From: Rhodospirillales bacterium | Lineage (GTDB): Bacteria > Pseudomonadota > Alphaproteobacteria > Acetobacterales > Acetobacteraceae | Direction of reading: 5' to 3' | Assembly: GCA_017304945.1 (NCBI GenBank) | Contig: JAFKLG010000058.1 | Location: 62,001-126,000 of the forward strand | DNA length: 64,000 nt | Shown: positions 33,492-63,298 of the stretch, one piece after another | How positions within the stretch are numbered: position 1 is the first letter of the stretch | How the letters are laid out: every line of letters starts with the position of its first letter | The notes under the pieces: model-generated | What the model was told of the DNA's origin: nothing | What the model saw: the letters and a program-made list of their open reading frames with translations, nothing else | Databases searched by the model: none | Program-made: the position numbers and the translations under genes

Positions 33492-34526
33492 ATGGAACTG
33501 TCTCTCGACGAACGCGGGCGGATCGATTTCGTCCTGACACTGCGCCGGCGCTGGGCCGACACCGTCTATCCCGCGCTGCGGGCGCAGTATGATGCCGACC
33601 CGGCCGGCACGGAGCCGGTGCGGGAGGCGGTGCATCGCCAGCCCGCCTATCCCTGGTTCGCCTTCCTGGAGCGCAATGCGCAGAAGATGCTGTGGCGCGA
33701 CGTCTCCGACGTGGTGGCGGCGCATCCGCGCGATGCCGGGACGGAGGCGTCCGGCCCGGCGACGCTGGAGCTGGATCCCAACCTCGAGCTGCCCGACTGG
33801 TACACCGATTGGGACATCCATGTGCAGCCGGGCGGCGTCTGGCGCAACGATGCCTCGGCCGACGTCTACGAACTGGGCGCCAAGCTGGTGATGCTGGGCG
33901 TCAACGACGACTACACGTTCCACCGCGCCTTCACCGAGACCGCGGTGCCGCCTGGGTCGTATCGGCGGATCGTCGACCTGGGCTGCGGCTTCGGCAAGTC
34001 GACCTGGCCGATGAAGCGCGCCTTCCCCGACGCCGAGGTCATCGGCATCGATCTGGCGGAACCCTGCCTGCGCATGGCGCGCGACCGCGCCAATGCGGCG
34101 GGACTGGCGATCCGCTTCATCCAGGCGGATTGCCAGGCGACGGGACTTGAGGCGGGATCGGTCGACTTCCTGATGTCGTCGATGCTCATCCACGAGATGC
34201 CGCGCCCGGCGCTGATCGCGACGTTGCGGGAGGCGGCGCGCATCCTGGCGCCCGGCGGCAAGCTGCGCTTCCTGGATTTCACCACCACCGGCGACGCGTT
34301 CCGCGACCTCGCGATGGCGGAACACGGGGAGCGCAACAACGAGCCATTCATGCCCGGCCTGCTGGCCGCCGACGTCCCGGCGCTGTGCGAGGCCGCGGGC
34401 CTGGCCGGGGCGCGCTGGGTCGCGTTCGACGAGCGCGGCGGCGGCCGGCTGCCCGAAAGATCCTGGCCGAAACGGGCGGAGTGGCATTTCCCCTGGGCCG
34501 TGCTGGAAGCGGAGAAGCCGCAATGA
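33492..34526 (+). CDS. Class I SAM-dependent methyltransferase with N-terminal extension, copy A
   Basis: 344 residues. The SAM-binding core starts near residue 158 with VDLGCGFGKST, an acidic IGIDLAEP and FIQADCQ, then MLIHEMP and LAPGGKLRFLDF. The first 150 residues form a conserved extra domain including YPALRAQY, FLERNAQKM and DIHVQPGGVW. The same extension and the C-terminal NNEPFMP recur in the protein at 51080-52156, which marks one unusual family. Its ATG follows the divergent promoter and its stop overlaps the start of the small partner gene. Methyl acceptor unknown; the context suggests a small carboxylic or nitrogenous catabolite. Confidence 0.85.
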   Translation: MELSLDERGRIDFVLTLRRRWADTVYPALRAQYDADPAGTEPVREAVHRQPAYPWFAFLERNAQKMLWRDVSDVVAAHPRDAGTEASGPATLELDPNLELPDWYTDWDIHVQPGGVWRNDASADVYELGAKLVMLGVNDDYTFHRAFTETAVPPGSYRRIVDLGCGFGKSTWPMKRAFPDAEVIGIDLAEPCLRMARDRANAAGLAIRFIQADCQATGLEAGSVDFLMSSMLIHEMPRPALIATLREAARILAPGGKLRFLDFTTTGDAFRDLAMAEHGERNNEPFMPGLLAADVPALCEAAGLAGARWVAFDERGGGRLPERSWPKRAEWHFPWAVLEAEKPQ

Positions 34527-34819: not shown

Positions 34820-36483
34820 GCGCGGAGCTCTCCCGGCATTTCATCGATGTCGGCGCGCGGCGGGTGCACTACACGCGCGCCGGATCGGGACCTGCGCTGG
34901 TGCTGCTGCATGAAAGCCCGTGTTCGGCGAAGTCGCTGGAAACCGTGCAGCGCGTGTTTTCCGAACGCTTCACCGTGATCGCGCCCGACACGCCGGGATT
35001 CGGCCTGTCCGATCCCTTGCCGCTGAAACAACCCGAGATCGCCGATTTCGCCGACGCGTTGGCCGAGACGCTGGCTGCGATCGGGGTGGGCAAGGCGGCC
35101 GTGTACGGGCGGCACACCGGCGCCTCGATCGCGGTGGAATATGCTCGCCGACATCCCGATCGCTGTGCCATGGCGGTGGCTGACGGCTACCCGGTCTACT
35201 CGGGGCCGCAGCAGGAAAGCCGGCTCACGGACTACCTGTTGCCGTTGGAGCCGCGCTGGGACGGCGGGCACCTGCTGTGGCTGTGGTTCCGCTACCGCGA
35301 CCAGCACACGTTCTGGCCGTGGCACAATCAGGCCGGGAGCAACCGCGCCGGCTGCGACGTGCCCGACCTGGATTTCCTGCAGCGCGGGGTGATGGAGTTC
35401 CTGGAGGCCGGGGACGGCTACCGCATCGCCTATGCGGCCGCGTTCCGGCATGGCGGCAAGGCACTGGCGCTGCTGCCCGAGTTGCGTGTGCCGACCTGCT
35501 TCGTCGCGCGACCCAGCGACAGCCTGTTCCGCGCGCTGTCCGTGCTGCCGCAGACGGAATGGGTCGAGACGCTGTCGCGCGACGAGGTGACGGCGGCACG
35601 GGAGACGATGGAGCTGCTGCTGCGCCACCCCGCACCGGTGCCGCCACCGGCGCCGCCCACAAATCCTGCGGCCGCCCGGAGCACGCTGCGCATGGTCGGC
35701 CCGCTGCTGTTGCGTAGCGCCGGCGAGGACCGTGGCGGTGTGCCGCTGCTGCTGCTGCACGACCTGCCCGGCAGCTCCGCGCTGCTCGATCCGCTCGTGG
35801 TGGCGCTCGGACAGCATCGTCCGACGCTGGCATTCGACCTGCTCGGGCAGGGCGAGTCGGAGGCGCCGGCCAATGGCAGGATCGATGTCGCGGCCTGGGC
35901 GCACTCGTTGATCGCGGCGCTCGACCGGCTTGGGATCGCGCAGGTGCACGTCTACGGGCATGGCGGCGGCGGAGTTGTGGCGACGGAACTCGCGCTCGCC
36001 GCGCCCGACCGGGTGGCCTCTTTGCTGCTGGGCGCGCCGCCTGCGCTGCCGGCGGAGGAGCGGGAGGCGTTTGCCGCCGGTTATGCGCCCTCGGCCGACC
36101 CGGTGTGGGAGGGCGCGCATCTGCTGCGTGTCTGGCACCATCTGCGCGACCAGGAATTGTGGTGGCCCTGGTACGAGCGCACGGTGGCAAGTGCGCGACC
36201 CGGCACGCTGGACATCGATCCGGCGACGCTGACCCTGCGGGCGCGCGAATGCCTGCGTCACCCGACGCTGTATCAGCCCGTGTGGCAGGCGGTGCTGGCG
36301 TATCCGTTGCGCGAGAAACTGGATCTGCTGCGCGGCCGCGCGGTGGTCCTGGCCGCGGAGCGGGACCTGTTCGCGCGGTTCGCCGCGGATGCGGCGGCTG
36401 CAGTGGGTAGCGACGTGGTGCCGGTCGAGCCGGGCTGGCAGGCACGTGCTACGGCGATCCTGCAACGGACCGCCGAGGTGTAG
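34816..36483 (+). CDS. Tandem-fused alpha/beta hydrolase with non-canonical nucleophile elbows
   Basis: 555 residues containing two alpha/beta-hydrolase domains (about 1-275 and 285-555), starting with GTG overlapping the upstream stop. The first elbow is GRHTG with His100 where Ser is expected; the second is GHGGG, also without Ser. Both have a cap motif: RDQHTFWPWHNQ and RDQELWWPWYER. The single-domain protein at 47928-48770 shares these (GSHTG, RDQYLFWPYYNR). Either this family uses a different nucleophile or the proteins are non-hydrolytic. Last gene of methyltransferase-small protein-hydrolase. Confidence 0.87.
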   Translation: MSAELSRHFIDVGARRVHYTRAGSGPALVLLHESPCSAKSLETVQRVFSERFTVIAPDTPGFGLSDPLPLKQPEIADFADALAETLAAIGVGKAAVYGRHTGASIAVEYARRHPDRCAMAVADGYPVYSGPQQESRLTDYLLPLEPRWDGGHLLWLWFRYRDQHTFWPWHNQAGSNRAGCDVPDLDFLQRGVMEFLEAGDGYRIAYAAAFRHGGKALALLPELRVPTCFVARPSDSLFRALSVLPQTEWVETLSRDEVTAARETMELLLRHPAPVPPPAPPTNPAAARSTLRMVGPLLLRSAGEDRGGVPLLLLHDLPGSSALLDPLVVALGQHRPTLAFDLLGQGESEAPANGRIDVAAWAHSLIAALDRLGIAQVHVYGHGGGGVVATELALAAPDRVASLLLGAPPALPAEEREAFAAGYAPSADPVWEGAHLLRVWHHLRDQELWWPWYERTVASARPGTLDIDPATLTLRARECLRHPTLYQPVWQAVLAYPLREKLDLLRGRAVVLAAERDLFARFAADAAAAVGSDVVPVEPGWQARATAILQRTAEV

Positions 36484-43689: not shown

Positions 43690-45690
43690 ATGACCCTGAC
43701 CGAATCCGACGCCGATCCGGCGCTGCTTCCCGGCGCGGCCCGCTACCCCTCGGTCTTCCGCCCCATCGAGCTGGGGCCGGTTCGGCTGCGCAACCGCATC
43801 TTCGTCCCCGCCCACACCACCAATTTCGGCGAGGACAACCTGCCGAGCGAACGGCATCTGGCGTATCATCGGGCCCGCGCGCGGGGCGGCGTCGGAATGA
43901 TCGTATTCGAGGGCATCCGCGTCCATCCGTCGAGCCTCGGGCGCCGGCAAGGGGTGAACGGCTACGACCCGGCCTGCATCTCCCGATTTGCCGCGATTGC
44001 ACGCGCGGTGCAGCAGGACGGGGCGAAGCTGTTCGGCCAGATCATCCATCTCGGCCGGCACATCGACGGCAACTACGCGCGGATGGCCGCCTGGTCGGCG
44101 AGCGCCGTGCCGTGGACGCCGCTCGCCGCGCCGCCGCATCCGATGACGGTGGCGGAGATCGGCCAGGTGGTGGCCGCGCATGCCGATGTCGCCAGGCACC
44201 TGATGGAGGCGGGGCTGGACGGCGTCGAGGTGACGCTGGCGCACGGGCATCTGCTGCAGCAGTTCCTCTCGCCCGCGGTGAATCGGCGCAGCGACGCCTA
44301 TGGCGGGCCGGTGGAGAACCGCATGCGCATGGCGCTGGAGGCGGTGGCCGCGGTGCGCGCGGCGGTGGGAGACGCGATCGCGGTCGGCGTACGCATCTCC
44401 GCCGACGAGTTCCTGGAGGGCGGGCTGACGCTGGCCGACATGCAGGACGTGATCGTGCGGCTGGCCGGGGCGGTGAAGCTCGACTTCGTCAACGTCTCGC
44501 ATTCCGCCTACCACGGCAGCGCCACCATCAGCACCCAGATGGCCGACATGGCGTTCGAGCCGGATGCGTTCCGGCACCTGCCGCGCGGCATCGCGACCGC
44601 GCTCGGGGGAAGCGTGCCGGTGTTCGCGGTGTGCCGCTTCCGCACGCTGGCCGAGGCCGAGACGATGCTGCAGGACGGCGAGATCGCCATGGTCGGCATG
44701 GCGCGCGCGCACATCGCCGACACCGCGCTGGTGCGCAAGGCGGCCGAGGGGCGGGAGGACGCGACGCGCCCCTGCATCGCCTGCAACCAGGGCTGCACCG
44801 GCTTCCTGGCGCAGTCGCTGCCGATCACCTGCCTGAGCAATGCGGCGATGGGACGCGAGACGGAGTGGCCGTTGCCCGCCCCCGCGGTCTTGGGGATGCG
44901 GCAGGCTGTGGCCGTCATCGGCGGCGGGCCCGCCGGGATGGAGGCCGCGCTGGTGGCCGCCGAACGCGGCCACGCGGTCACGCTGTGGGAGGCCTCGACC
45001 GAGACCGGCGGCGCGCTGCGCCACAGCCTGGCCATGCCGAAGCGGCGCGATTTCGGCCTGCTGCTGGACTATCAGCGTCGCGCGGTGGAGCGTGCGGGCG
45101 TCACGCTGCGCCTGGGCGAGCGAGCCGATGCCACTTCGGTCGCCGGCTTCGATGCGGTGGTGGTGGCGACCGGAGCGCGACCCGCCGCGGCGGCGCTGCC
45201 CGGTGGCGGCACGCCGCTCACCATGGAGGCCGCTCTGGCCGATCCCGACGCGCTGGGCGCGCATGTCGCGGTGCAGGACCTGCTGGGAAGCTGGGCGATG
45301 ACCGGGCTGATCGAGTTCCTGGCCGATAGCGGCCGGCAGGTGACCGTGATCGCGCCCACCGGCACGCCCGGATGGCAGATGAGCATCTACTCCTCCTTCG
45401 CCTGGCGGAAGCGATTGCGCGACCGGCGCGTGCGCATCCTCGGCCTGCGCAGCGTGCAGTCCTTCGCCGATGGCGCGCTGGTGCTGCAGGATGCCTCCAC
45501 CGGCGACACCGAATGTCTGGAGGGCGTGGACTCGCTGATCGCCCCCGCGGTGGGCATCCCCAATGATGCGCTGGTGCCGGTGCTGTCCGGCAATGCCGCG
45601 CGGCCGGTGCTGCCGGTGGGCGACTGCGTCGCCGCGCGATCGGCGCTGGAAGCGATCTTCGAAGGCCATCAGGCAGGGCGGACTTTATGA
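43690..45690 (+). CDS. Old yellow enzyme/2,4-dienoyl-CoA reductase-type flavin oxidoreductase with FeS and FAD domains
   Basis: 666 residues. N-terminal FMN TIM barrel (NRIFVPAHTTNFGED, GVEVTLAHGHLLQQFLSPAV with RSDAYGG), a 4Fe-4S site CIACNQGCTG near 362-371 plus a further Cys in ITCLSN, then an FAD/NAD domain with VIGGGPAGMEAAL near 409. The layout is that of FadH, trimethylamine dehydrogenase and N-demethylases such as those for stachydrine or dimethylglycine. Start at 43690 has GAGG 8 bases upstream; an ATG at 43642 lies inside the repeated promoter element. The AhpD-like gene overlaps the stop. Confidence 0.93.
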   Translation: MTLTESDADPALLPGAARYPSVFRPIELGPVRLRNRIFVPAHTTNFGEDNLPSERHLAYHRARARGGVGMIVFEGIRVHPSSLGRRQGVNGYDPACISRFAAIARAVQQDGAKLFGQIIHLGRHIDGNYARMAAWSASAVPWTPLAAPPHPMTVAEIGQVVAAHADVARHLMEAGLDGVEVTLAHGHLLQQFLSPAVNRRSDAYGGPVENRMRMALEAVAAVRAAVGDAIAVGVRISADEFLEGGLTLADMQDVIVRLAGAVKLDFVNVSHSAYHGSATISTQMADMAFEPDAFRHLPRGIATALGGSVPVFAVCRFRTLAEAETMLQDGEIAMVGMARAHIADTALVRKAAEGREDATRPCIACNQGCTGFLAQSLPITCLSNAAMGRETEWPLPAPAVLGMRQAVAVIGGGPAGMEAALVAAERGHAVTLWEASTETGGALRHSLAMPKRRDFGLLLDYQRRAVERAGVTLRLGERADATSVAGFDAVVVATGARPAAAALPGGGTPLTMEAALADPDALGAHVAVQDLLGSWAMTGLIEFLADSGRQVTVIAPTGTPGWQMSIYSSFAWRKRLRDRRVRILGLRSVQSFADGALVLQDASTGDTECLEGVDSLIAPAVGIPNDALVPVLSGNAARPVLPVGDCVAARSALEAIFEGHQAGRTL

Positions 45691-46394
45691 GCAACGAGAC
45701 GACCGACGACCTGGCGCAGCGCCTGGAGGCGGTGCGCGCCAAGCGCGGCTACCTGCTGCCGCATCACGGCCTGCTGGCGCTGGCGTTCCCCGATCTGCTG
45801 GCGGGCTACGCCGCGGCCTACAGCGCGATGGCGCTCGCCGACCGCGTGCTGTCGCATCACGACCGGGAGTTCGTGTGGCTGGCGGTGCTGGCGGCCACGG
45901 ATGAGTCGCTGGCGACGCATCACATCACGAAGTTCCGCGCGGCCGGTGGCACCGACGCGACGATGGAGGCCGCGTTCGCCGCCTGCGCGCTGGCGATCGG
46001 CGCCGAGGCCTATGACTTCGCCGCGCGCGACTGGTCGGCGCAGTTGCAGCCCTGGAATCCGCAGGCGGCCTATCTGCGCGGCGTGCGCGCGCTGGCGCCG
46101 CTGCGGCTGGTGCACCTGGCACAATGCGCGGTGCATGTCTGCCGCGCCCGCTGGCGGTTGCTGGGCTGGCAGTTGCGCGCGGCCTATGAGGACGGCGTGC
46201 CGGAGGACGAGATCGCCGAGGCGCTGACGCTGGCGATGTTCCCCGGCTCCATTCCGCGCTTCGTCGAGGCGTGCCGCGTGTGGCTCGAGTTGATCCAGGA
46301 CGGCACGCTGCCGGCCTCTCCCCGCTACCAGGCCTGGGCGCGGCTTGCCGGCCAGGGCGGGCACGATGAGGCGATGGCTGGCAAGCCTGAGTGA
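45687..46394 (+). CDS. CMD/AhpD-like protein without CxxC, copy B
   Basis: 235 residues, paralogue of the protein at 32641-33354. Shared landmarks are KRGYLLPHHGLL, REFVWLAVL, HHITKFRAAGG (in place of the AhpD CxxC region), LRAAYEDGV and RFVEACRVW. No catalytic Cys pair. Translationally coupled to the OYE gene (ATGA), whereas copy A is coupled to a GMC oxidoreductase; both copies thus accompany a flavoprotein. It may be a decarboxylase, isomerase or a scaffold; unknown. Confidence 0.8.
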   Translation: MSNETTDDLAQRLEAVRAKRGYLLPHHGLLALAFPDLLAGYAAAYSAMALADRVLSHHDREFVWLAVLAATDESLATHHITKFRAAGGTDATMEAAFAACALAIGAEAYDFAARDWSAQLQPWNPQAAYLRGVRALAPLRLVHLAQCAVHVCRARWRLLGWQLRAAYEDGVPEDEIAEALTLAMFPGSIPRFVEACRVWLELIQDGTLPASPRYQAWARLAGQGGHDEAMAGKPE

Positions 46395-46561: not shown

Positions 46562-47287
46562 TCACCGCGCACAGTACCCCCCATCCACCAGCATGTCCGA
46601 CCCCGTCATGAACGATGCGCGATCGGAGGCGAGGAACAGCGCGGCCTCCGCGATCTCCTCCACGCGGCCCAACCGGTTGAGCAGATGCAGCGGCGCCAGC
46701 GCCGCCTCGGCCGCCGCGACGGAGCCGAACGTGCCGGCCACGCGCGCGGTGCCCACCGCGCCCGGGGACAGGCTGTTCACGCGGATGCCCTGCGCCGCGT
46801 GATCGATCGCCAGCGCCTTGCTGTAGGCGATCAGCGCACCCTTGGTGGCCGAGTAGACCGTGCGCCCCGCGGCGGAGACGCTGCCAAGCTGCGAGGCCAT
46901 GTTGATGATGGACCCACCTGACGGCATCAGCGGAATCGCGAAGCGGCAGGTGTGGTAGGCGGCCGTCAGGTTGATCGCGATCGCCTCATCCCACTCCGCC
47001 GGCGCAAGATTGGTGACCGGCGCGCGGCGGGTGTTCGCCGCGGCATTGTTCACCAGCACATGCACGACGCCCGCCTCCGCGGCGATGCGCGCGAACGCGG
47101 CCTCGATCTGCGCCGCATCGCCCAGGTCGAGCACGATCGAGGTGACGGAAGCCATCTCGGGCGGGGCGAACCGGTCGAGCGCGTAGAGCCGTGCGCCTGC
47201 CTCGACGAAGCGGCGCAGCATGGCCTGGCCGATGCCGCCGGCGGCGCCGGTGATGACGCAGACGCGGCCGTCGAGATCGCCGGCCAT
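46562..47287 (-). CDS. SDR-family oxidoreductase
   Basis: 241 residues. Cofactor motif TGAAGGIG near 13-20, NNAAA in the NNAG position, catalytic ASQLGSVSAAG and YSATK, and C-terminal LVDGGYCAR. An Asp after strand 2 (YALDRF) suggests NAD(H). ATG 47287 overlaps the stop of the upstream unknown gene by one base. Last gene of the operon FAD protein-hydrolase-unknown-SDR. Confidence 0.91.
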   Translation of the reverse strand: MAGDLDGRVCVITGAAGGIGQAMLRRFVEAGARLYALDRFAPPEMASVTSIVLDLGDAAQIEAAFARIAAEAGVVHVLVNNAAANTRRAPVTNLAPAEWDEAIAINLTAAYHTCRFAIPLMPSGGSIINMASQLGSVSAAGRTVYSATKGALIAYSKALAIDHAAQGIRVNSLSPGAVGTARVAGTFGSVAAAEAALAPLHLLNRLGRVEEIAEAALFLASDRASFMTGSDMLVDGGYCAR

Positions 47288-47931
47288 CAGGGAGCAGCCA
47301 GCAGGCGGGCGACGAAGCTGACCGTCGTGCCGGGCGGCGACGTCGGTTCCGCCAGCGCGTCGACGCCCTCGCCGTAATCCAGCACCAGCCAGTCGAGGCC
47401 GAGCGGATTGTCCTGACTGATCGGCACGTGCCAGGCGCCGGCGGCCGGGCCCATGGAGAAATGCTTGCGGATGGTTTCCTCGAACCGCCAGGCCAGGTCG
47501 TGGCCGGTGGGTGTCGCGCCGGTACCTCCGCTGATGCGGGCATACGGTGTGGGCGTGCCGGCGGGTTCCTGCACCGGCTTCATCAGGTAGGCATTGGCCT
47601 GGATCGGCGCGGGCTTGCCGGTGCCGTAGCCCCACAGCCGCACCCATTCGGTGCGGAACCCGTCCAGGTCCTTGTTGAACCAGACGCGTTCCAGGTCTTC
47701 GTGTCCCACCAGGCCCTGGAAGTCCAGGTAGTCATAGGGCAACGGCGCGCCGTCCAGCACGCGCTCCAGCTTCCAGTTGGCGTAGTGGTGCACGCCTGGA
47801 ATGGCATTGAAGAACGGATTGTCGACGCTGCGCAGCCAGGGCTCGTAGCCCTTCGCCTCGGCCTCCGGGCCTGGCGTGTAGACGATGTAGATGACCGAGG
47901 GGCAGTCTTCCAGCCGGCGGGGTGCGCTCAC
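47287..47931 (-). CDS. Conserved hypothetical protein, possible ferredoxin-like fold
   Basis: 214 residues starting with GTG that overlaps the hydrolase stop (GTGA). Not recognised. The early part (VIYIVYTPGPEAEAKGYEP, PGVHHYANWKLERVL) has the strand-helix-strand look of a dimeric alpha/beta barrel such as EthD-type proteins. The C-terminal half contains GHDLAWRFEETIRKHF and many Pro and Gly. No signal peptide or membrane segment. Its place inside a four-gene overlapping operon with a His-elbow hydrolase and an SDR implies a shared pathway. Confidence 0.75.
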   Translation of the reverse strand: MSAPRRLEDCPSVIYIVYTPGPEAEAKGYEPWLRSVDNPFFNAIPGVHHYANWKLERVLDGAPLPYDYLDFQGLVGHEDLERVWFNKDLDGFRTEWVRLWGYGTGKPAPIQANAYLMKPVQEPAGTPTPYARISGGTGATPTGHDLAWRFEETIRKHFSMGPAAGAWHVPISQDNPLGLDWLVLDYGEGVDALAEPTSPPGTTVSFVARLLAAP

Positions 47932-48770
47932 GGGACGATCTCCTGATCGAGGAACTGGGCGATGACCGCGGCAGAACCCGCTTCGAAATCCGGGTCGCTC
48001 CAGGCGGGCAGGTCGGCGATGGTTGCGCCGGGAACCAACGCGGTCACGCTGTGGAAGTAGCGGTGCAGCATGTCGGACGGCGAGCACGCCACCAGCACCG
48101 GCAGGCGCAGCAACGGCAGTCGGTCGCGCTTGGGATGGCGGAACGCGGCGCGGTAAGAGTGGTGATAGCTGCGCATCGCCTTCAGCACTTCCACCACGAA
48201 GTCGTGGAACGTGCCGGCATCGGGCAGGCCGTTCGGCAGCCGCCCTTCGGCGCTGCGGTTGTAATACGGCCAGAACAGGTACTGGTCGCGGCAGAAATGC
48301 CAGACCTGCATCAGGTGCGTCGCCTCCAGGTCGGGCACGATCTCGCGCGCATAGCGCTGCAGCACCTCGCTCTGTTCGTCGCTCGCGTAGAGGCCCATGC
48401 CGTCGATCACCAGGCGGCGTACGCGATCGGGATGCGCGATGGCGATCTCCATGGCGATCGAGGCGCCGGTGTGGCTGCCATACAGATCGAAGCGATCCGG
48501 CAACACCTGATCGAGCGCCTTGAAGGCCTCGGCTGCAAGATGCGGAATGTCCGGCATCGCCCGCGGGGAGGGCGTGGAGTCGCCGTTGCCACGCGTATCC
48601 GGCGCCACGACGCGGCGCGTGGCCGACAGCGCGTGCATCAGGCCCTCGAGCTGCTTCGAGGACCCCGGCGAGGGGTGGATCAGCGCGAGCGGCACGGCGT
48701 CCGTCGCGGCGCCGGCCTCCCGCAGATGGATCTGCCCGTCCGGCAGGTCGACGAAGCGCCGGCGGATCAT
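47928..48770 (-). CDS. Alpha/beta hydrolase-fold protein with His at the nucleophile elbow
   Basis: 280 residues. The fold is clear (LALIHPSPGSSKQLEGL for the oxyanion loop, VVAPDTRGNGDS, then the elbow LYGSHTGASIAMEIA). In the elbow, His100 occupies the nucleophile place and a Ser lies one residue earlier. The cap motif RDQYLFWPYYNR and AFRHPKRDRLPLLRLPVLV tie it to both halves of the fused protein at 34816-36483. A clear C-terminal catalytic His is not visible. Genes on both sides overlap by four bases. Confidence 0.87.
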   Translation of the reverse strand: MIRRRFVDLPDGQIHLREAGAATDAVPLALIHPSPGSSKQLEGLMHALSATRRVVAPDTRGNGDSTPSPRAMPDIPHLAAEAFKALDQVLPDRFDLYGSHTGASIAMEIAIAHPDRVRRLVIDGMGLYASDEQSEVLQRYAREIVPDLEATHLMQVWHFCRDQYLFWPYYNRSAEGRLPNGLPDAGTFHDFVVEVLKAMRSYHHSYRAAFRHPKRDRLPLLRLPVLVACSPSDMLHRYFHSVTALVPGATIADLPAWSDPDFEAGSAAVIAQFLDQEIVP

Positions 48771-49441
48771 GCCGCGGCCTTGGTGTGGCGGTGCCCGAGC
48801 GTCTGGCCGATCCAGCGGCCGAACGACAGGGCAGGGGTGACGCTCATGCCGCCCACGAAGGCGTTGCCGGACAGCGCCGCGCCGCCCATCGCTTCGCCGA
48901 TCGTATACAGGTTCGGGATCGGCTTGCCTTCCGTGTTCAGCACGCGCAATTCCGTGTCGATGGCGAGGCCCGCCGGCGTCTTCAGGATGATGCCGTGCAT
49001 GCGGATGGCGCGCAGCGGCGCGGTGGCGACAGCGGCGGGGCGATGCTGGCGACCCAGCGGATCGGGCGCACCGTCCGCAAGCGCGGTGTTGTAGGCGGCG
49101 ATCGTTTCGGCGAGCCCGGCGGGGTCGAAGCCCATTCCCATCAGCCAGTCGAAGGTAGGAGCGGCGAGTGCGGCAGCTTTTTCGACCAGCGAAACGTCGC
49201 AGGTGTTGCGGCTGATGCGGATCGCCTCCTGCACATGCGCGGCGACGCTGTCCGCGATGCCGCGGGCACGCTGCAATTCAGTGCCGGCGGCGCTCATCTG
49301 CCCGGCGGAGACATGCAGCGTGCCGCCGATGCGGTCCGATTGCTCGATCAAGAGCACATTGGCGCCGGTTTGGACGGCCTCGATCGCGGCTGGAATGCCG
49401 GCCGTTCCGGCACCCACGATGACGATGTCGAATTGCTGCAT
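48767..49441 (-). CDS. FAD-binding-2 (fumarate reductase-like) protein with a large internal deletion
   Basis: 224 residues against about 450-500 usual for the family. The N-terminal FAD motif IVIVGAGTAGIPAAIEA, with LIEQSDRIGGT, and the C-terminal FAD region NLYTIGEAMGG with GNAFVGGMSVTPALSFGRW are both intact. They are joined directly near residue 105 (GFDPAGLAETIAAYN), so the middle substrate domain of roughly 200 residues is absent while the frame is kept. The ATG at 49441 has GGAAGG upstream; ATG 49447 is too close to it. First gene of a coupled operon. Either a decayed gene or a minimal flavoprotein. Confidence 0.8.
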   Translation of the reverse strand: MQQFDIVIVGAGTAGIPAAIEAVQTGANVLLIEQSDRIGGTLHVSAGQMSAAGTELQRARGIADSVAAHVQEAIRISRNTCDVSLVEKAAALAAPTFDWLMGMGFDPAGLAETIAAYNTALADGAPDPLGRQHRPAAVATAPLRAIRMHGIILKTPAGLAIDTELRVLNTEGKPIPNLYTIGEAMGGAALSGNAFVGGMSVTPALSFGRWIGQTLGHRHTKAAA

Positions 49442-49581
49442 GGGCATCCTTCCGCGACTGTGCCGGGCAACGAGGCAATGGGCGGCGATCCGCCCAACCC
49501 CGGTCGGGCCTCTGCCGCGTCGATGGGCAATTCTGGCCGACGTCGTGGTTTTCCTGTTGGCGGGTTGGCAAACTGCGCCTA

Positions 49582-49605: not shown

Positions 49606-49737
49606 TTCGCAAGCGTTCCCCAGCCATGCATCTTCCGTAGCCATGCGGTTCCGCAGGCGGACCAAGATCGTTCCGCGAGGTCTGCGCGCTTGTCGGCTTC
49701 ATTCGTGCCCGCTCCCGAAACTCCTTGAGGCTTGCTG

Positions 49738-50718
49738 ATGAAAACCTCCCTCTCGCGCCGCGGACTGATGCTTTCGCTCGGCGGCGCCGCACTGCTCGCG
49801 CCGACCGTGCGGGCGCAGAGCAAGATCACCTTGCGGTATGGCAACGCGGGGAACGCGCAGACGCTGTCGAACACCTTCAACGCGAAGTTGTTCGCAGATG
49901 TGACCAGCAAGACGGGCGGGGCGGTCGCGTTCACCATCTTCGCCGGCACGTTGGGCGGCGAGCAGAAGCTGCTGGAGTCGATGGCGCTGGGCAGCCTCGA
50001 TATCTACAACGGCGCCTATACCGGCACGCGCGAGTTCGACATCCTCTACAGCCCGTATTTCTTCCGTGATGGCGCGCAGGCCGACCGGGTGATGCAGGGC
50101 GAGATCGGCGCCAAGGCCTCCGCCGTTCTGCAGAAGCGCTACCGCGCCCGCCTCCTCGGCACCGGCCGGCTCGGCACCTACAACCTGATGCTGAAGGAGC
50201 CGATCAAGAGCTTCGCCGACCTCAAGGGCCGCAAGATCCGCACCGCCGCGATCGAGGGCTGCATCGAGGGCGTGAAGTTCTTCGGCGGCAATCCCACGCC
50301 GATCCCGTTCGACCAGATCTACCTCGCGCTGCAGCAGGGCATCGTCGACGGCGTGCTGACCGCGCTGAACCCAGGTGTTGCAGGCAAGTTCTACGAAGTC
50401 TGCAAATACGTGGTGGCCAGCGACTTCGGCGTGGCGCTGGACAAGGAGGTGATCTCCGACACCGCATGGAACCGGCTGAAGCCGGATCAGCGGAAGATCC
50501 TGGCCGATGGCTTCAAGTCGCTCGAGGTGACCGACTACTACGACATCGGCCTGAAGCAGAAGGACGCCGATCTGGCGAGCTGGGCGAAGGCCAACGGCCC
50601 GGACAGCGTGATCCGGCTGGATGCCGGCAAACTGTATGAGGAGCTGGAGCCGTTGAACAGCCGCCTGGCGAACGAGGTGTTCGGCCCCGGCGCCTGGGAT
50701 GCCGTGAAGAAGGCCTGA
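49738..50718 (+). CDS. TRAP transporter substrate-binding protein, DctP family
   Basis: 326-residue periplasmic solute receptor. N terminus MKTSLSRRGLMLSLGGAALL carries an SRRGLML twin-arginine motif, cleaved after VRAQ. DctP landmarks: LADVTSKTGGAV-like region, GEQKLLESMALGSLDIYNG, and FADLKGRKIRTAAIEG, in which the Arg of the ligand carboxylate site would lie. GAGG sits 7 bases before ATG 49738. Separated from its membrane subunits by the small protein and methyltransferase genes, all on one strand. Ligand most likely a carboxylate. Confidence 0.92.
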   Translation: MKTSLSRRGLMLSLGGAALLAPTVRAQSKITLRYGNAGNAQTLSNTFNAKLFADVTSKTGGAVAFTIFAGTLGGEQKLLESMALGSLDIYNGAYTGTREFDILYSPYFFRDGAQADRVMQGEIGAKASAVLQKRYRARLLGTGRLGTYNLMLKEPIKSFADLKGRKIRTAAIEGCIEGVKFFGGNPTPIPFDQIYLALQQGIVDGVLTALNPGVAGKFYEVCKYVVASDFGVALDKEVISDTAWNRLKPDQRKILADGFKSLEVTDYYDIGLKQKDADLASWAKANGPDSVIRLDAGKLYEELEPLNSRLANEVFGPGAWDAVKKA

Positions 50719-51079: not shown

Positions 51080-52156
51080 ATGGCAAAGGACCTGCCGGTC
51101 GACCGGCGCTTCGACGCGTATCAGGACTTCGTGCTGGGCTGCAAACTGGCGTGGACGCGCAGCCTGTATCCGGCGCTGCGCGCGCATTATGCCGAGGCGG
51201 TCGCGGCCGCCGACGCGCCGCCGGCCAGCGCCGCCGATGTCGCGGCGCTGCTGAAGGATGACCCGCTCAACCAGTATTTCGGCTGGTTCGAACGCCATCT
51301 GCAGCGCATGAAATACTCCGGCCGGCACGGGCTCGCGCCGCATTTCGCGGCCCAGCGTGCGGAGCTGGAGGATGAGCTGGCGGCCGGCGCCGAAAGCGGC
51401 ATCCTGACGCTCGATCCGGCCTTCGAGCAGCCCGCGTATTACGTGGCGATCGACATCCACCAGCATCCCGGCGGTGTCTGGAGCGACGAGGTTGCCGGCT
51501 ATGTCTATGAGCGCGGGGCGCGCACCACGACGCCGCTGCTGGAGGAGGATGCCGACCTGCATCATCGCTTCACCCGTGAGGTGATGGCGCGAGCCACCAA
51601 TCCACGCCGGCTGGTCGACCTGGGCTGCGGCTTCGGCAAAAGCAGCCGCCCGTTCTACAACAAGCACCGCGAGCTGGATGTCACCGGCGTGGAACTCTCC
51701 GCGCCCTGCCTGAAGCTCGCGGCGCGCACCGCCGTGCAGGACCAGGCGCGCAACGTGCGGTTCCGCCAGGCGGACAGTGCCGACACCGGGCTGGAGGCGG
51801 GCGCCTATGACGTGGTGACCAGTACCATGGTGCTGCACGAGATGCCGCCCAGCCATATCGAGAGGACCATTCAGGAATCCTTCCGGCTGCTGGTGCCGGG
51901 CGGGTTGTCGATCCATCTGGACTTCCTGACCGACCAGGACCCGTTTCGCCGGTTCATCCACTACGGCCACAGCGCGCGCAACAATGAGCCGTTCATGCCG
52001 CCGCTGAACGAGATGGACCTGGAAGGTGCCCATCGCCGCGCCGGCTTCGAGACGTTCGAGGTCGTGCCGTTCGCGGAGATGCCCGGCACGCTGGATCCGG
52101 CCTTCACCGCGTGGCGGTTCCCCTGGACCATGATCATCGCCCGCAAGCCGGCCTGA
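51080..52156 (+). CDS. Class I SAM-dependent methyltransferase with N-terminal extension, copy B
   Basis: 358 residues. SAM motif VDLGCGFGKSS near 179, TGVELSAP, FRQADSADTGLEAG, MVLHEMP, VPGGLSIHLDF and NNEPFMPPL. The N-terminal domain shares YPALRAHY, WFERHLQRM and DIHQHPGGVW with the protein at 33492-34526. It is embedded between the TRAP receptor and TRAP membrane subunits, so the imported TRAP ligand, or a close derivative, may be its methyl acceptor. Start preceded by GGGAGGGGA and AGAGG. Confidence 0.87.
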   Translation: MAKDLPVDRRFDAYQDFVLGCKLAWTRSLYPALRAHYAEAVAAADAPPASAADVAALLKDDPLNQYFGWFERHLQRMKYSGRHGLAPHFAAQRAELEDELAAGAESGILTLDPAFEQPAYYVAIDIHQHPGGVWSDEVAGYVYERGARTTTPLLEEDADLHHRFTREVMARATNPRRLVDLGCGFGKSSRPFYNKHRELDVTGVELSAPCLKLAARTAVQDQARNVRFRQADSADTGLEAGAYDVVTSTMVLHEMPPSHIERTIQESFRLLVPGGLSIHLDFLTDQDPFRRFIHYGHSARNNEPFMPPLNEMDLEGAHRRAGFETFEVVPFAEMPGTLDPAFTAWRFPWTMIIARKPA

Positions 52157-52160
52157 CACC

Positions 52161-52667
52161 ATGAGCAACCATGGTGTGCCACGCCCCACCACGATCCTGG
52201 ACAAGGTGATCTACTATCTGGGCGCGCTCGGGATGCTCTCCCTGTTCGCCGTGGTGATCTACAGCGTCGGCATGCGCTACCTGTTCAATCGCCCGCCGCT
52301 GTGGTCGGCCGACGTGCCCAACCTGATTTTCATCTGGCTGGTGTTCGGGGTCGTCGGCCTCACTGCCAAGCTGGGGCCGCAGATCCGTGTGGTGTTCTTC
52401 GTGGAGCGGATGCCGCCCGCGCTCAACCGCGCGCTGCTGATCGTCGCGCACTGCGCGATCCTGGTGATGCTGGCGACGTTCATCATCTACAGCCAGCCGA
52501 TCATCGAACTCAGCAGCAGCGAGACGATGCTGTCCACCGGTTGGTCGGGATCGGTCTACTTCTATGCGCTGCCGATCGGCAGCCTGGTGATCGCCTATTA
52601 CCAGATCGCCGCGCTGTTCCACCTGCTGACCAACCGTGACCACGCCGGGGATGGGCGCCGCCGATGA
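52161..52667 (+). CDS. TRAP transporter small permease, DctQ family
   Basis: 168 residues with four predicted transmembrane helices: YYLGALGMLSLFAVVIYSVG, VPNLIFIWLVFGVVGLTA, LLIVAHCAILVMLATFIIYS, and the last near FYALPIGSLVIAYYQIAALF. Starts four bases after the methyltransferase stop and overlaps the DctM start (ATGA). Confidence 0.93.
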   Translation: MSNHGVPRPTTILDKVIYYLGALGMLSLFAVVIYSVGMRYLFNRPPLWSADVPNLIFIWLVFGVVGLTAKLGPQIRVVFFVERMPPALNRALLIVAHCAILVMLATFIIYSQPIIELSSSETMLSTGWSGSVYFYALPIGSLVIAYYQIAALFHLLTNRDHAGDGRRR

Positions 52668-53959
52668 TCCTCATCACGCTCGTCGTTCTGCTGATGGTCT
52701 TCATCCTGTCGGGGATGGAGGTGGCCTGGGCCATCGGCCTGACAGCCTTTGTCTGCATCGCGCTATCGCAACTGACGGACAATCCGCAGCCCTTCGTCGT
52801 GTTCGCGCACGAGATGACCTCGGGCATCAACTCCTTCACGCTGCTCAGCGTGCCGCTGTTCATCTTCGCGGGTGAGCTGCTGACTCTCAGCGGCGCCACC
52901 AAGCGACTGGTCGACCTGGCCTCGGCGCTGGTCGGGCACATCAGCGGCGGCCTGGCCAATGTCGCGGTGACGGCAAACTTCGTCGTCTCCGGCATGTCGG
53001 GCTCCGCCATGGCGGACGCCGCGGCGACCGGAGTCGTGCTGGTGCCGGAAATGGCGCGACGCAACTATCCGGTGGATTATGCCTGCGCGGTGATCGCCTG
53101 CGCGGCGACCGTGGGACCGCTGGTGCCGCCCTCGCTGCTGTTCATCGTGCTGGGGGCCGCGGTCAACCTGTCGGTGGGCAAGTTGTTCCTGGCCGGCATC
53201 GTCCCCGCCTTCGTGCTGTTCCTGTCGATGTACGCGCTCACCTGGTGGATCGCCCGCCGCCGCGGCCTGCCGCGCGAGCCGAAGCTGCCCTGGGCGCAGC
53301 GTGTGCGCATCATCGTCCTTGGGCTGCCGCCGCTGGCGGCGCCGGCCTTCGTGGTCGCCTCCATGGTGCTGGGCATCGCGACGCCCACCGAAGCCGCATC
53401 CATCGCGGTGCTCTACACGCTGTTCCTGGGCTGCCTCATCTATCGCACGCTCAACCTGCGCAACATCATCGACTGCGCCGCGCGTTCGGCCCTGGTGGCG
53501 ACTGCGGTGATGCTGACCGTGGCGACGTCGCAGATCTTCTCGGCGCTGGTGGTGCACGAGCAGTTCGGTGACATGCTGACCACCGGCATGCTGTCGATAT
53601 CGCACAATCCCTACGTGCTGCTGTTCATGGTGAACATCATCCTGCTGATGTTGGGCATGTTCATGGAGCCGCTGCCGATCGTGCTGGTGCTGGCGCCGCT
53701 GCTGGTGCCGATGATGGAAAGCGTCGGCGTCGACCCGATCCATCTCGGTGTGGTGATGGTGCTGAACCTGATGGTCGGGCTGATCCACCCCCCGGTGGGG
53801 ATGAACCTGTTCGTCGTCTCGGCCATCGGCCGGGTGGAACTGATGGACGTGTTCTTCCAGGCCATCCCCTACATGCTGCTGCTGCTGGGCCTGCTGATCG
53901 CCATCACCTACGTGCCGCAGATCAGCCTGTTCCTGCCCAACCTGATCATGGGGCACTGA
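52664..53959 (+). CDS. TRAP transporter large permease, DctM family
   Basis: 431-residue, roughly 12-helix Na+-coupled permease. Hallmarks include FTLLSVPLFIFAGELLTLSG, NFVVSGMSGSAMADAAATG and IATPTEAASIAVLYTLFLG, and NLMVGLIHPPVGMNLFVVSA. Completes the DctP-small protein-methyltransferase-DctQ-DctM operon. Confidence 0.95.
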   Translation: MILITLVVLLMVFILSGMEVAWAIGLTAFVCIALSQLTDNPQPFVVFAHEMTSGINSFTLLSVPLFIFAGELLTLSGATKRLVDLASALVGHISGGLANVAVTANFVVSGMSGSAMADAAATGVVLVPEMARRNYPVDYACAVIACAATVGPLVPPSLLFIVLGAAVNLSVGKLFLAGIVPAFVLFLSMYALTWWIARRRGLPREPKLPWAQRVRIIVLGLPPLAAPAFVVASMVLGIATPTEAASIAVLYTLFLGCLIYRTLNLRNIIDCAARSALVATAVMLTVATSQIFSALVVHEQFGDMLTTGMLSISHNPYVLLFMVNIILLMLGMFMEPLPIVLVLAPLLVPMMESVGVDPIHLGVVMVLNLMVGLIHPPVGMNLFVVSAIGRVELMDVFFQAIPYMLLLLGLLIAITYVPQISLFLPNLIMGH

Positions 53960-62593: not shown

Positions 62594-63298
62594 ATGGATG
62601 GCAAGTTCGTCTCCTACCTCCGCGTGTCGACCGATCGCCAGGGCCGCAGCGGCCTCGGGCTGGAAGCTCAGCGCGAAGCGGTCTCGCGCTTCCTCAACGG
62701 GGGCTCCTGGCGCCTACTAGGCGAGTTCGTTGAGGTCGAGAGCGGCCGGGCGAACGAGCGGCCCCAACTCGCTGCGGCCCTCAACCAGTGCCGGCTTACG
62801 GGCGCCACGCTCGTTGTCGCCAAGCTGGACCGCCTGGCACGCAATGCGCGGTTCCTCCTATCCGTGGTCGAGGGCTCCGGAGAGGGCGGCGTGATCTTCT
62901 GCGACCTACCGCGGCTTCCCCCAGGTCCAGTGGGCAAGTTCATGGTGACCCAGATGGCAGCCGTGGCCGAGTTGGAGGCGGGCCTGATCGGGCAGCGGAC
63001 CAAGGATGCCTTGGCGGAGGCGCGTAGGCGCGGCGTGAAGCTGGGCGGCTACCGCGGGGGCCCCAAGGCAGACCACCGGCAGGCCACTGCGGCACGGCAG
63101 GAAGCGGCAGCCTCCAGAGCGGGGGCGCTGGGACCGCTGATCGGGAGGATGCGCGAGCAAGGGCTGTCTCTGCGGGAGATCGCTGCGGAACTCCAGAGGC
63201 AGGGCATACAGACCCCGCGGGATGGCGCTTGGACCGCCGCGGGGGTCAGGGCGATCCTGCTGCGTTCCTCGGGGGAGGCCCAAGCACCTGTTGCATAA
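62594..63298 (+). CDS. Serine recombinase (resolvase/invertase family)
   Basis: 234 residues. Resolvase catalytic domain: YLRVSTDRQGRSGLGLEAQR with nucleophile Ser12 and Arg10, ESGRANERPQL, and KLDRLARNARFL. A long helix, then a C-terminal helix-turn-helix in LSLREIAAELQRQGIQTPRD. Small size indicates a resolvase or invertase rather than a large phage integrase. It probably moves or resolves the local mobile DNA; its target site was not identified. Confidence 0.9.
   Translation: MDGKFVSYLRVSTDRQGRSGLGLEAQREAVSRFLNGGSWRLLGEFVEVESGRANERPQLAAALNQCRLTGATLVVAKLDRLARNARFLLSVVEGSGEGGVIFCDLPRLPPGPVGKFMVTQMAAVAELEAGLIGQRTKDALAEARRRGVKLGGYRGGPKADHRQATAARQEAAASRAGALGPLIGRMREQGLSLREIAAELQRQGIQTPRDGAWTAAGVRAILLRSSGEAQAPVA

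Follow-up and report, generated by a model that had tools for sequence, protein, structure and literature searches.

In the stretch of Rhodospirillales DNA analysed here (64,000 nucleotides of contig JAFKLG010000058.1, referred to as the window), a protein of the alpha/beta-hydrolase fold, P0001, is encoded on the minus strand, and a tandem paralogue with two such domains is encoded at lower coordinates on the plus strand (Table 1). The P0001 gene lies in a cluster of the order FAD oxidoreductase, His hydrolase and DABB-like protein; the genes for DctP, small protein and methyltransferase run divergently from these three, and DctM is nearby. Two pairs of methyltransferase and small-protein genes are present in the window, one of which overlaps the tandem hydrolase gene while the other adjoins the P0001 cluster. 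The FAD oxidoreductase is encoded in one open frame and lacks about 250 internal residues (110–361 of the L090 homologue used as query), for which no comparable match was found elsewhere in the genome; this is probably an in-frame deletion, or else an assembly error. Towards the window's right end, an open reading frame (62594–63298) resembles, by eye, a serine recombinase/resolvase.

Table 1. Genes, motifs and codons of the window considered in this study.
Feature	Position	Strand	Basis or remark
SAM-dependent methyltransferase, second copy	33492–34526	plus	overlaps small-protein gene
Second small protein, 98 aa	34523–34819	plus	overlaps start of tandem hydrolase gene
Tandem two-domain paralogue, 555 aa	34816–36483	plus	
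GRHTG elbow, domain 1 of tandem paralogue	35107–35121	plus	residues 98–102
GHGGG at elbow, degenerate domain 2 of tandem paralogue	35956–35970	plus	
CMD-family protein	45687–46394	plus	conserved near orthologues L019 and L090
SDR oxidoreductase	46562–47287	minus	
Double DABB (ferredoxin-like) protein	47287–47931	minus	adjoins P0001 gene; conserved partner in 7 loci
P0001, single-domain alpha/beta-hydrolase-fold protein, 280 aa	47928–48770	minus	ORF, Pfam, AF2 model
Asp233 codon, after strand beta-7	48072–48074	minus	canonical acid position
Asp123 codon, end of strand beta-6	48402–48404	minus	candidate His100 partner
GSHTG elbow of P0001 (G98-S99-H100-T101-G102)	48465–48479	minus	sequence; strand 94–99 / helix 101–112
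Ser34 codon, H-x-[S/T]-P oxyanion-loop motif	48669–48671	minus	
Flavocytochrome-c/TcuA-like FAD oxidoreductase	48767–49447	minus	adjoins P0001 gene
TRAP transporter solute-binding protein DctP	49732–50718	plus	Pfam; conserved in cluster
Small protein, 103 aa	50745–51056	plus	paired with methyltransferase
SAM-dependent methyltransferase	51080–52156	plus	linked to His-elbow hydrolases
TRAP transporter DctM	52664–53959	plus	

The preliminary description of this DNA had pointed out the motifs GSHTG in P0001 and GRHTG in the first domain of the tandem protein, and both were read in the sequence as described. In P0001, the histidine is His100 (codon CAC, 48471–48473, minus strand). The second domain of the tandem protein reads G-H-G-G-G and therefore has Gly, not His, at the nucleophile position. 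P0001 passed the Pfam cut-off for Abhydrolase_1 (PF00561; 41.1 bits, cut-off 25.8), while every cut-off of the named NCBIfam equivalogs was missed (best 51.3 bits, cut-off 390). An AF2 model built from 70 family members reached a pLDDT of 96.9 and a pTM of 0.94; by this model, Foldseek and Pfam, P0001 has the alpha/beta-hydrolase core with an elbow between beta-5 and the following helix. Since strand 94–99 runs straight into helix 101–112, His100 is the elbow residue. Alignments by phmmer and hmmsearch set it opposite the Ser of proline iminopeptidase (1azw) and Est1 (6eb3) and the Asp of EphA (5cw2). Neither the model nor the alignments placed the histidine off the elbow or a Ser at the nucleophile site, in agreement with the position claimed for it earlier.

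According to published descriptions of alpha/beta hydrolases, the elbow carries Ser, Cys or Asp, and the His that acts as base comes after beta-8 (PMC11878206). P0001 has His100 in place of the former and no conserved His after beta-8: the best alignment column past residue 233 contains His in only 23% of the rows, which bears out the earlier remark that a clear C-terminal catalytic His is not seen and led us to reject a hidden one. An acid after beta-7 or beta-6 is retained, with Asp233 in 97% and Asp123 in 79% of 70 His-family rows. With the esterases and chloroperoxidases of Abhydrolase_1 (1a8s, 3om8, Est1 6eb3), P0001 shares the fold, the elbow glycines, the oxyanion-loop His and the post-beta-7 acid, but it differs from them in the His at the elbow, the missing post-beta-8 His, the Ser or Thr at position 34 and an identity of only about 20%. 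Epoxide hydrolases and haloalkane and fluoroacetate dehalogenases are among its closest solved relatives by sequence, but both their Asp nucleophile and their post-beta-8 His are absent from P0001. The hydroxynitrile lyases AtHNL and HbHNL are an example of a non-hydrolytic use of the fold; they differ from P0001 in keeping a Ser-His-Asp triad.

Searches for a described relative returned generic proteins. Foldseek with the P0001 model found generic members of the fold only (best 1a8s, TM 0.75, E 4e-17), and sequence searches of the PDB with P0001 alone, with the family profile and with a GHHTG paralogue yielded only generic Ser and Asp hydrolases. In the open-access literature, where silence is weak evidence of absence, we found nothing on GxHTG-type motifs and, among the results listed, nothing on point for a replacement of the elbow Ser by His. 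Thus, no dedicated Pfam or NCBIfam model, no close structure and, within this partial literature, no paper was found for the His-elbow family.

The preliminary description had taken the substitution in two paralogues as a sign of a maintained property, and the wider family strongly supports this and speaks against chance. At E <= 1e-25, 12 of 299 genomes of the order contain relatives, and at E <= 1e-20, 28 of 385 genomes of the class do; His is the elbow residue in 77 of the 111 distinct family domains sampled. Ser or Cys was found at the elbow in none of the 111, and the sole Asp sits in one degenerate second domain. As a control, 25 Abhydrolase_1 proteins of the same genome with a readable elbow were inspected; these have mostly Ser or Asp, and the single true His elbow among them belongs to a member of the family. 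The protein at L147 was rejected as a further His-elbow case, as it actually has a serine elbow, AHSGA, that had been read with the register off by one residue. Orthologues of P0001 with 65–78% identity are found in Gemmobacter, Salipiger, Albibacillus, Chachezhania and one genome of the taxonomic family of the window genome. Plasmid-borne relatives are present in Comamonas, Variovorax, Sphingomonas, Sphingobium, Novosphingobium, Antarctobacter, Azospirillum and Rhizorhabdus. Two Sphingomonadaceae plasmids, pJE1 (L116) and pTomTYG65b (L119), are collinear over about 28 kb; this shared region carries two family members, one single-domain and one tandem, along with an isochorismatase, two polysaccharide deacetylases and LeuCD-like genes; the plasmid names pJE1 and TomTYG65 give no hint of a substrate.

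In a maximum-likelihood tree, the His-elbow family was split from the Ser/Asp paralogues with a support of 96/93. P0001 falls into a clade of single-domain proteins; the tandem first domains make up another clade, with a His elbow in 28 of 29 members, and the tandem second domains form a group of weaker support (90/68), whose elbow residue is Gly, Glu, Asn, Gln, Ala, Tyr, Asp or occasionally His. A further small clade includes a third His-elbow paralogue of the window genome (L004, G000:C123:26972-27697), which is more distant and has a GHHTG elbow and an HQTP loop. By parsimony, the tree thus gives the His elbow as the basic state of the family, whose members have one or two domains, with losses in the second domains and in a sublineage with Met, Arg or Leu. 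This sublineage has many copies in some genomes, and therefore the fold can persist without the His. Four genomes (G326, G456, G553 and G630 of family f29; e.g. L065 and L068) carry at least six family copies each, some of them side by side; some of these copies have the elbows GSMTG, GVRTG or GILTG. The P0001 gene itself is under purifying selection (dN/dS about 0.17–0.34).

The residues accompanying the elbow histidine were compared between His-bearing groups and second domains. The former were picked for their His, so that the conservation of His100 itself is circular here, while the other residues were not selected for. Ser34, Pro35, His100, Thr101, Asp123, Tyr202, Tyr206 and Ala209 are held in the His-bearing domains but have decayed in the second domains, whereas His32, Asp58, Asp233, Trp157, Arg161, Asp162 and Pro168 are held in both. 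The frequency of Asp123 is 1.00 in the single-domain clade, 0.71 in tandem first domains and 0.30 in second domains. Position 34 is Ser or Thr in 68 of 73 His domains versus 7 of 34 non-His domains, an association inflated by shared ancestry, and mostly Trp, Gly or Phe in ordinary paralogues. Even allowing for this inflation, the residue associations describe a polar site that is being kept rather than one that is decaying. The cap motif RDQxxFWP(W/Y) noted earlier is real, but the connection drawn between it and the His did not hold: the motif is equally kept in second domains lacking the His, therefore marks the family rather than His chemistry, and was rejected as part of a His mechanism.

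The genomic context was compared across the family. The cluster around P0001 recurs at L017, L018, L021 and L022 and, with small changes, at L019 and L090, in Gemmobacter, Salipiger, Albibacillus, Chachezhania and other hosts. For the DABB-like protein, an AF2 model (pLDDT 85.5) consists of two ferredoxin-like modules; its best Foldseek match, the anthrone oxidase-like 5f9p, is weak (prob 0.99, E 5e-3), and the weak best matches include cofactor-free oxygenases and cyclases. The methyltransferase is rare, occurring in 6 of 299 genomes of the order, and four of these six genomes also carry a His hydrolase, in each case within a few kb (Fisher p 2e-5). The small proteins (98 and 103 aa) have no Pfam match; their pairing with the methyltransferase recurs in several genomes but is otherwise rare. 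In Antarctobacter, small protein, methyltransferase and hydrolase genes form one overlapping string. At L161 (G247:C11:22000-40000), a methyltransferase–small protein pair is accompanied by ADC-, OppA- and hydantoinase-like genes and by no His hydrolase; therefore, the pair can exist without the hydrolase. Taken together, the clusters and the methyltransferase linkage suggest one kind of pathway, catabolic to judge by its transporters and enzymes, and the family probably serves the breakdown of nutrients taken up from the environment.

An elbow His combined with the lack of a second catalytic His points, as far as sequence and model go, to a different kind of chemistry. With the acids present, the beta-8 His gone and a His at the elbow, we infer a relocated His-Asp general base as the simplest reading. 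We therefore propose tentatively, at a likelihood just short of even, that P0001 belongs to an undescribed family of alpha/beta-hydrolase-fold enzymes whose base His has been relocated from the post-beta-8 loop to the elbow, where it would serve as general base in a non-covalent manner. This base would be His100, with Asp123 and/or Asp233 holding it; substrate or water would be held by Ser34, Thr101 and the amides of the oxyanion hole; and a lid carrying Tyr202 and Tyr206 would lie over the site. The reaction would be non-covalent, i.e. proton abstraction with C-C cleavage, isomerisation, elimination, oxygenation or base-assisted hydrolysis, and may belong to a catabolic pathway that receives its substrates through a TRAP or oligopeptide transporter. 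In this way, the His-Asp base may work as in the cofactor-free dioxygenases. In HOD, the pair H251-D126 alone forms the base, and the elbow residue S101 is dispensable and replaced by Ala in some relatives (PMC10548524), a precedent that supports a relocated base. The dioxygenases HOD, QDO and AqdC have the fold and an acid after beta-6 in common with P0001, and D126 of HOD lies 25 residues past the elbow, Asp123 of P0001 23. They differ in having Ser or Ala at the elbow and the His in the beta-8 loop; of a HOD-like dyad, P0001 thus has the position of the Asp but lacks the His.

A relocated base is favoured because His occupies the elbow in the model, in the alignments and in most family domains, because Ser34, Thr101, Asp123, Tyr202 and Tyr206 are lost together with the His in second domains, and because Ser or Thr at position 34 is tied to the His, Asp233 is nearly invariant and the gene is under purifying selection. 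Likewise, the catabolic type of neighbourhood and the linkage to a rare methyltransferase favour an enzyme. Against a relocated base stand the sublineage whose elbow residue is Met, Arg or Leu and the incomplete conservation of Asp123 in tandem first domains.

Three rival explanations, in order of falling plausibility, are a binding protein, a swapped triad Ser34-His100-Asp233 and an acyl-histidine enzyme. Under the first, a former hydrolase would have given up catalysis and become a binding or scaffold protein, such as a sensor, chaperone or partner subunit. This is unlikely, although the canonical Ser and the C-terminal His are both gone, the second domains are clearly degenerate, paralogues with Met, Arg or Leu elbows exist, and the linked small protein and methyltransferase might form a complex with it. 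The polar set of S34, H100, T101, D123, Y202 and Y206, however, is conserved in His domains and decays jointly in second domains, as expected for an active site; the conserved polar residues around His100 favour an enzyme whose base has been relocated.

Less likely still is a covalent serine hydrolase in which nucleophile and base have exchanged positions, with Ser34 (sometimes Thr) of the oxyanion loop after beta-3 as nucleophile, His100 as base and Asp233 as acid. It would account for the tight tie between position 34 and His100, and position 34 faces the active site in related haloalkane dehalogenases, where it is the halide-binding Asn. Yet Ala, Gly, Asn or Pro stands there in 6 of 70 His-family rows, and the usual role of the oxyanion loop would be lost; we know of no precedent for such a triad. 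It is improbable that His100 itself makes the covalent attack, passing through an acyl- or phospho-imidazole: it does occupy the nucleophile site of an elbow that is otherwise normal and predicted with confidence, with acids available for orienting it, but a second base for activating water is not conserved, and the open-access literature provided no precedent for this fold. It is highly improbable that a chance substitution or misread register hides a conventional hydrolase whose nucleophile is Ser99 or Thr101. Ser99 does stand just before the His in P0001, but position 99 varies freely (T, S, F, R, A, H, N, Y, V, K), Gly98 and Gly102 together with the model fix the register, and the elbow His is conserved family-wide. 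By register and variability, Ser99 is refuted as a shifted nucleophile, and Thr101 was rejected as an unlikely one.

The family is widespread and bacterial, standing by its fold inside the known superfamily and by its active-site features outside the triad definition. We consider the chances evenly balanced that it has moved its catalytic His to the elbow, or swapped nucleophile and base (Ser34-His100-Asp233), a layout undescribed for the fold, within an uncharacterised catabolic pathway in which a double DABB-fold protein also takes part, along with a flavoenzyme and a methyltransferase. The fold is among the largest known for enzymes, and it is the nucleophile elbow that defines it. If true, a family with His at the elbow and none after beta-8 would widen the known chemistry of this fold, and genes annotated 'alpha/beta hydrolase' would be corrected in Alpha- and Betaproteobacteria, among them strains isolated from soil contaminated with linuron.
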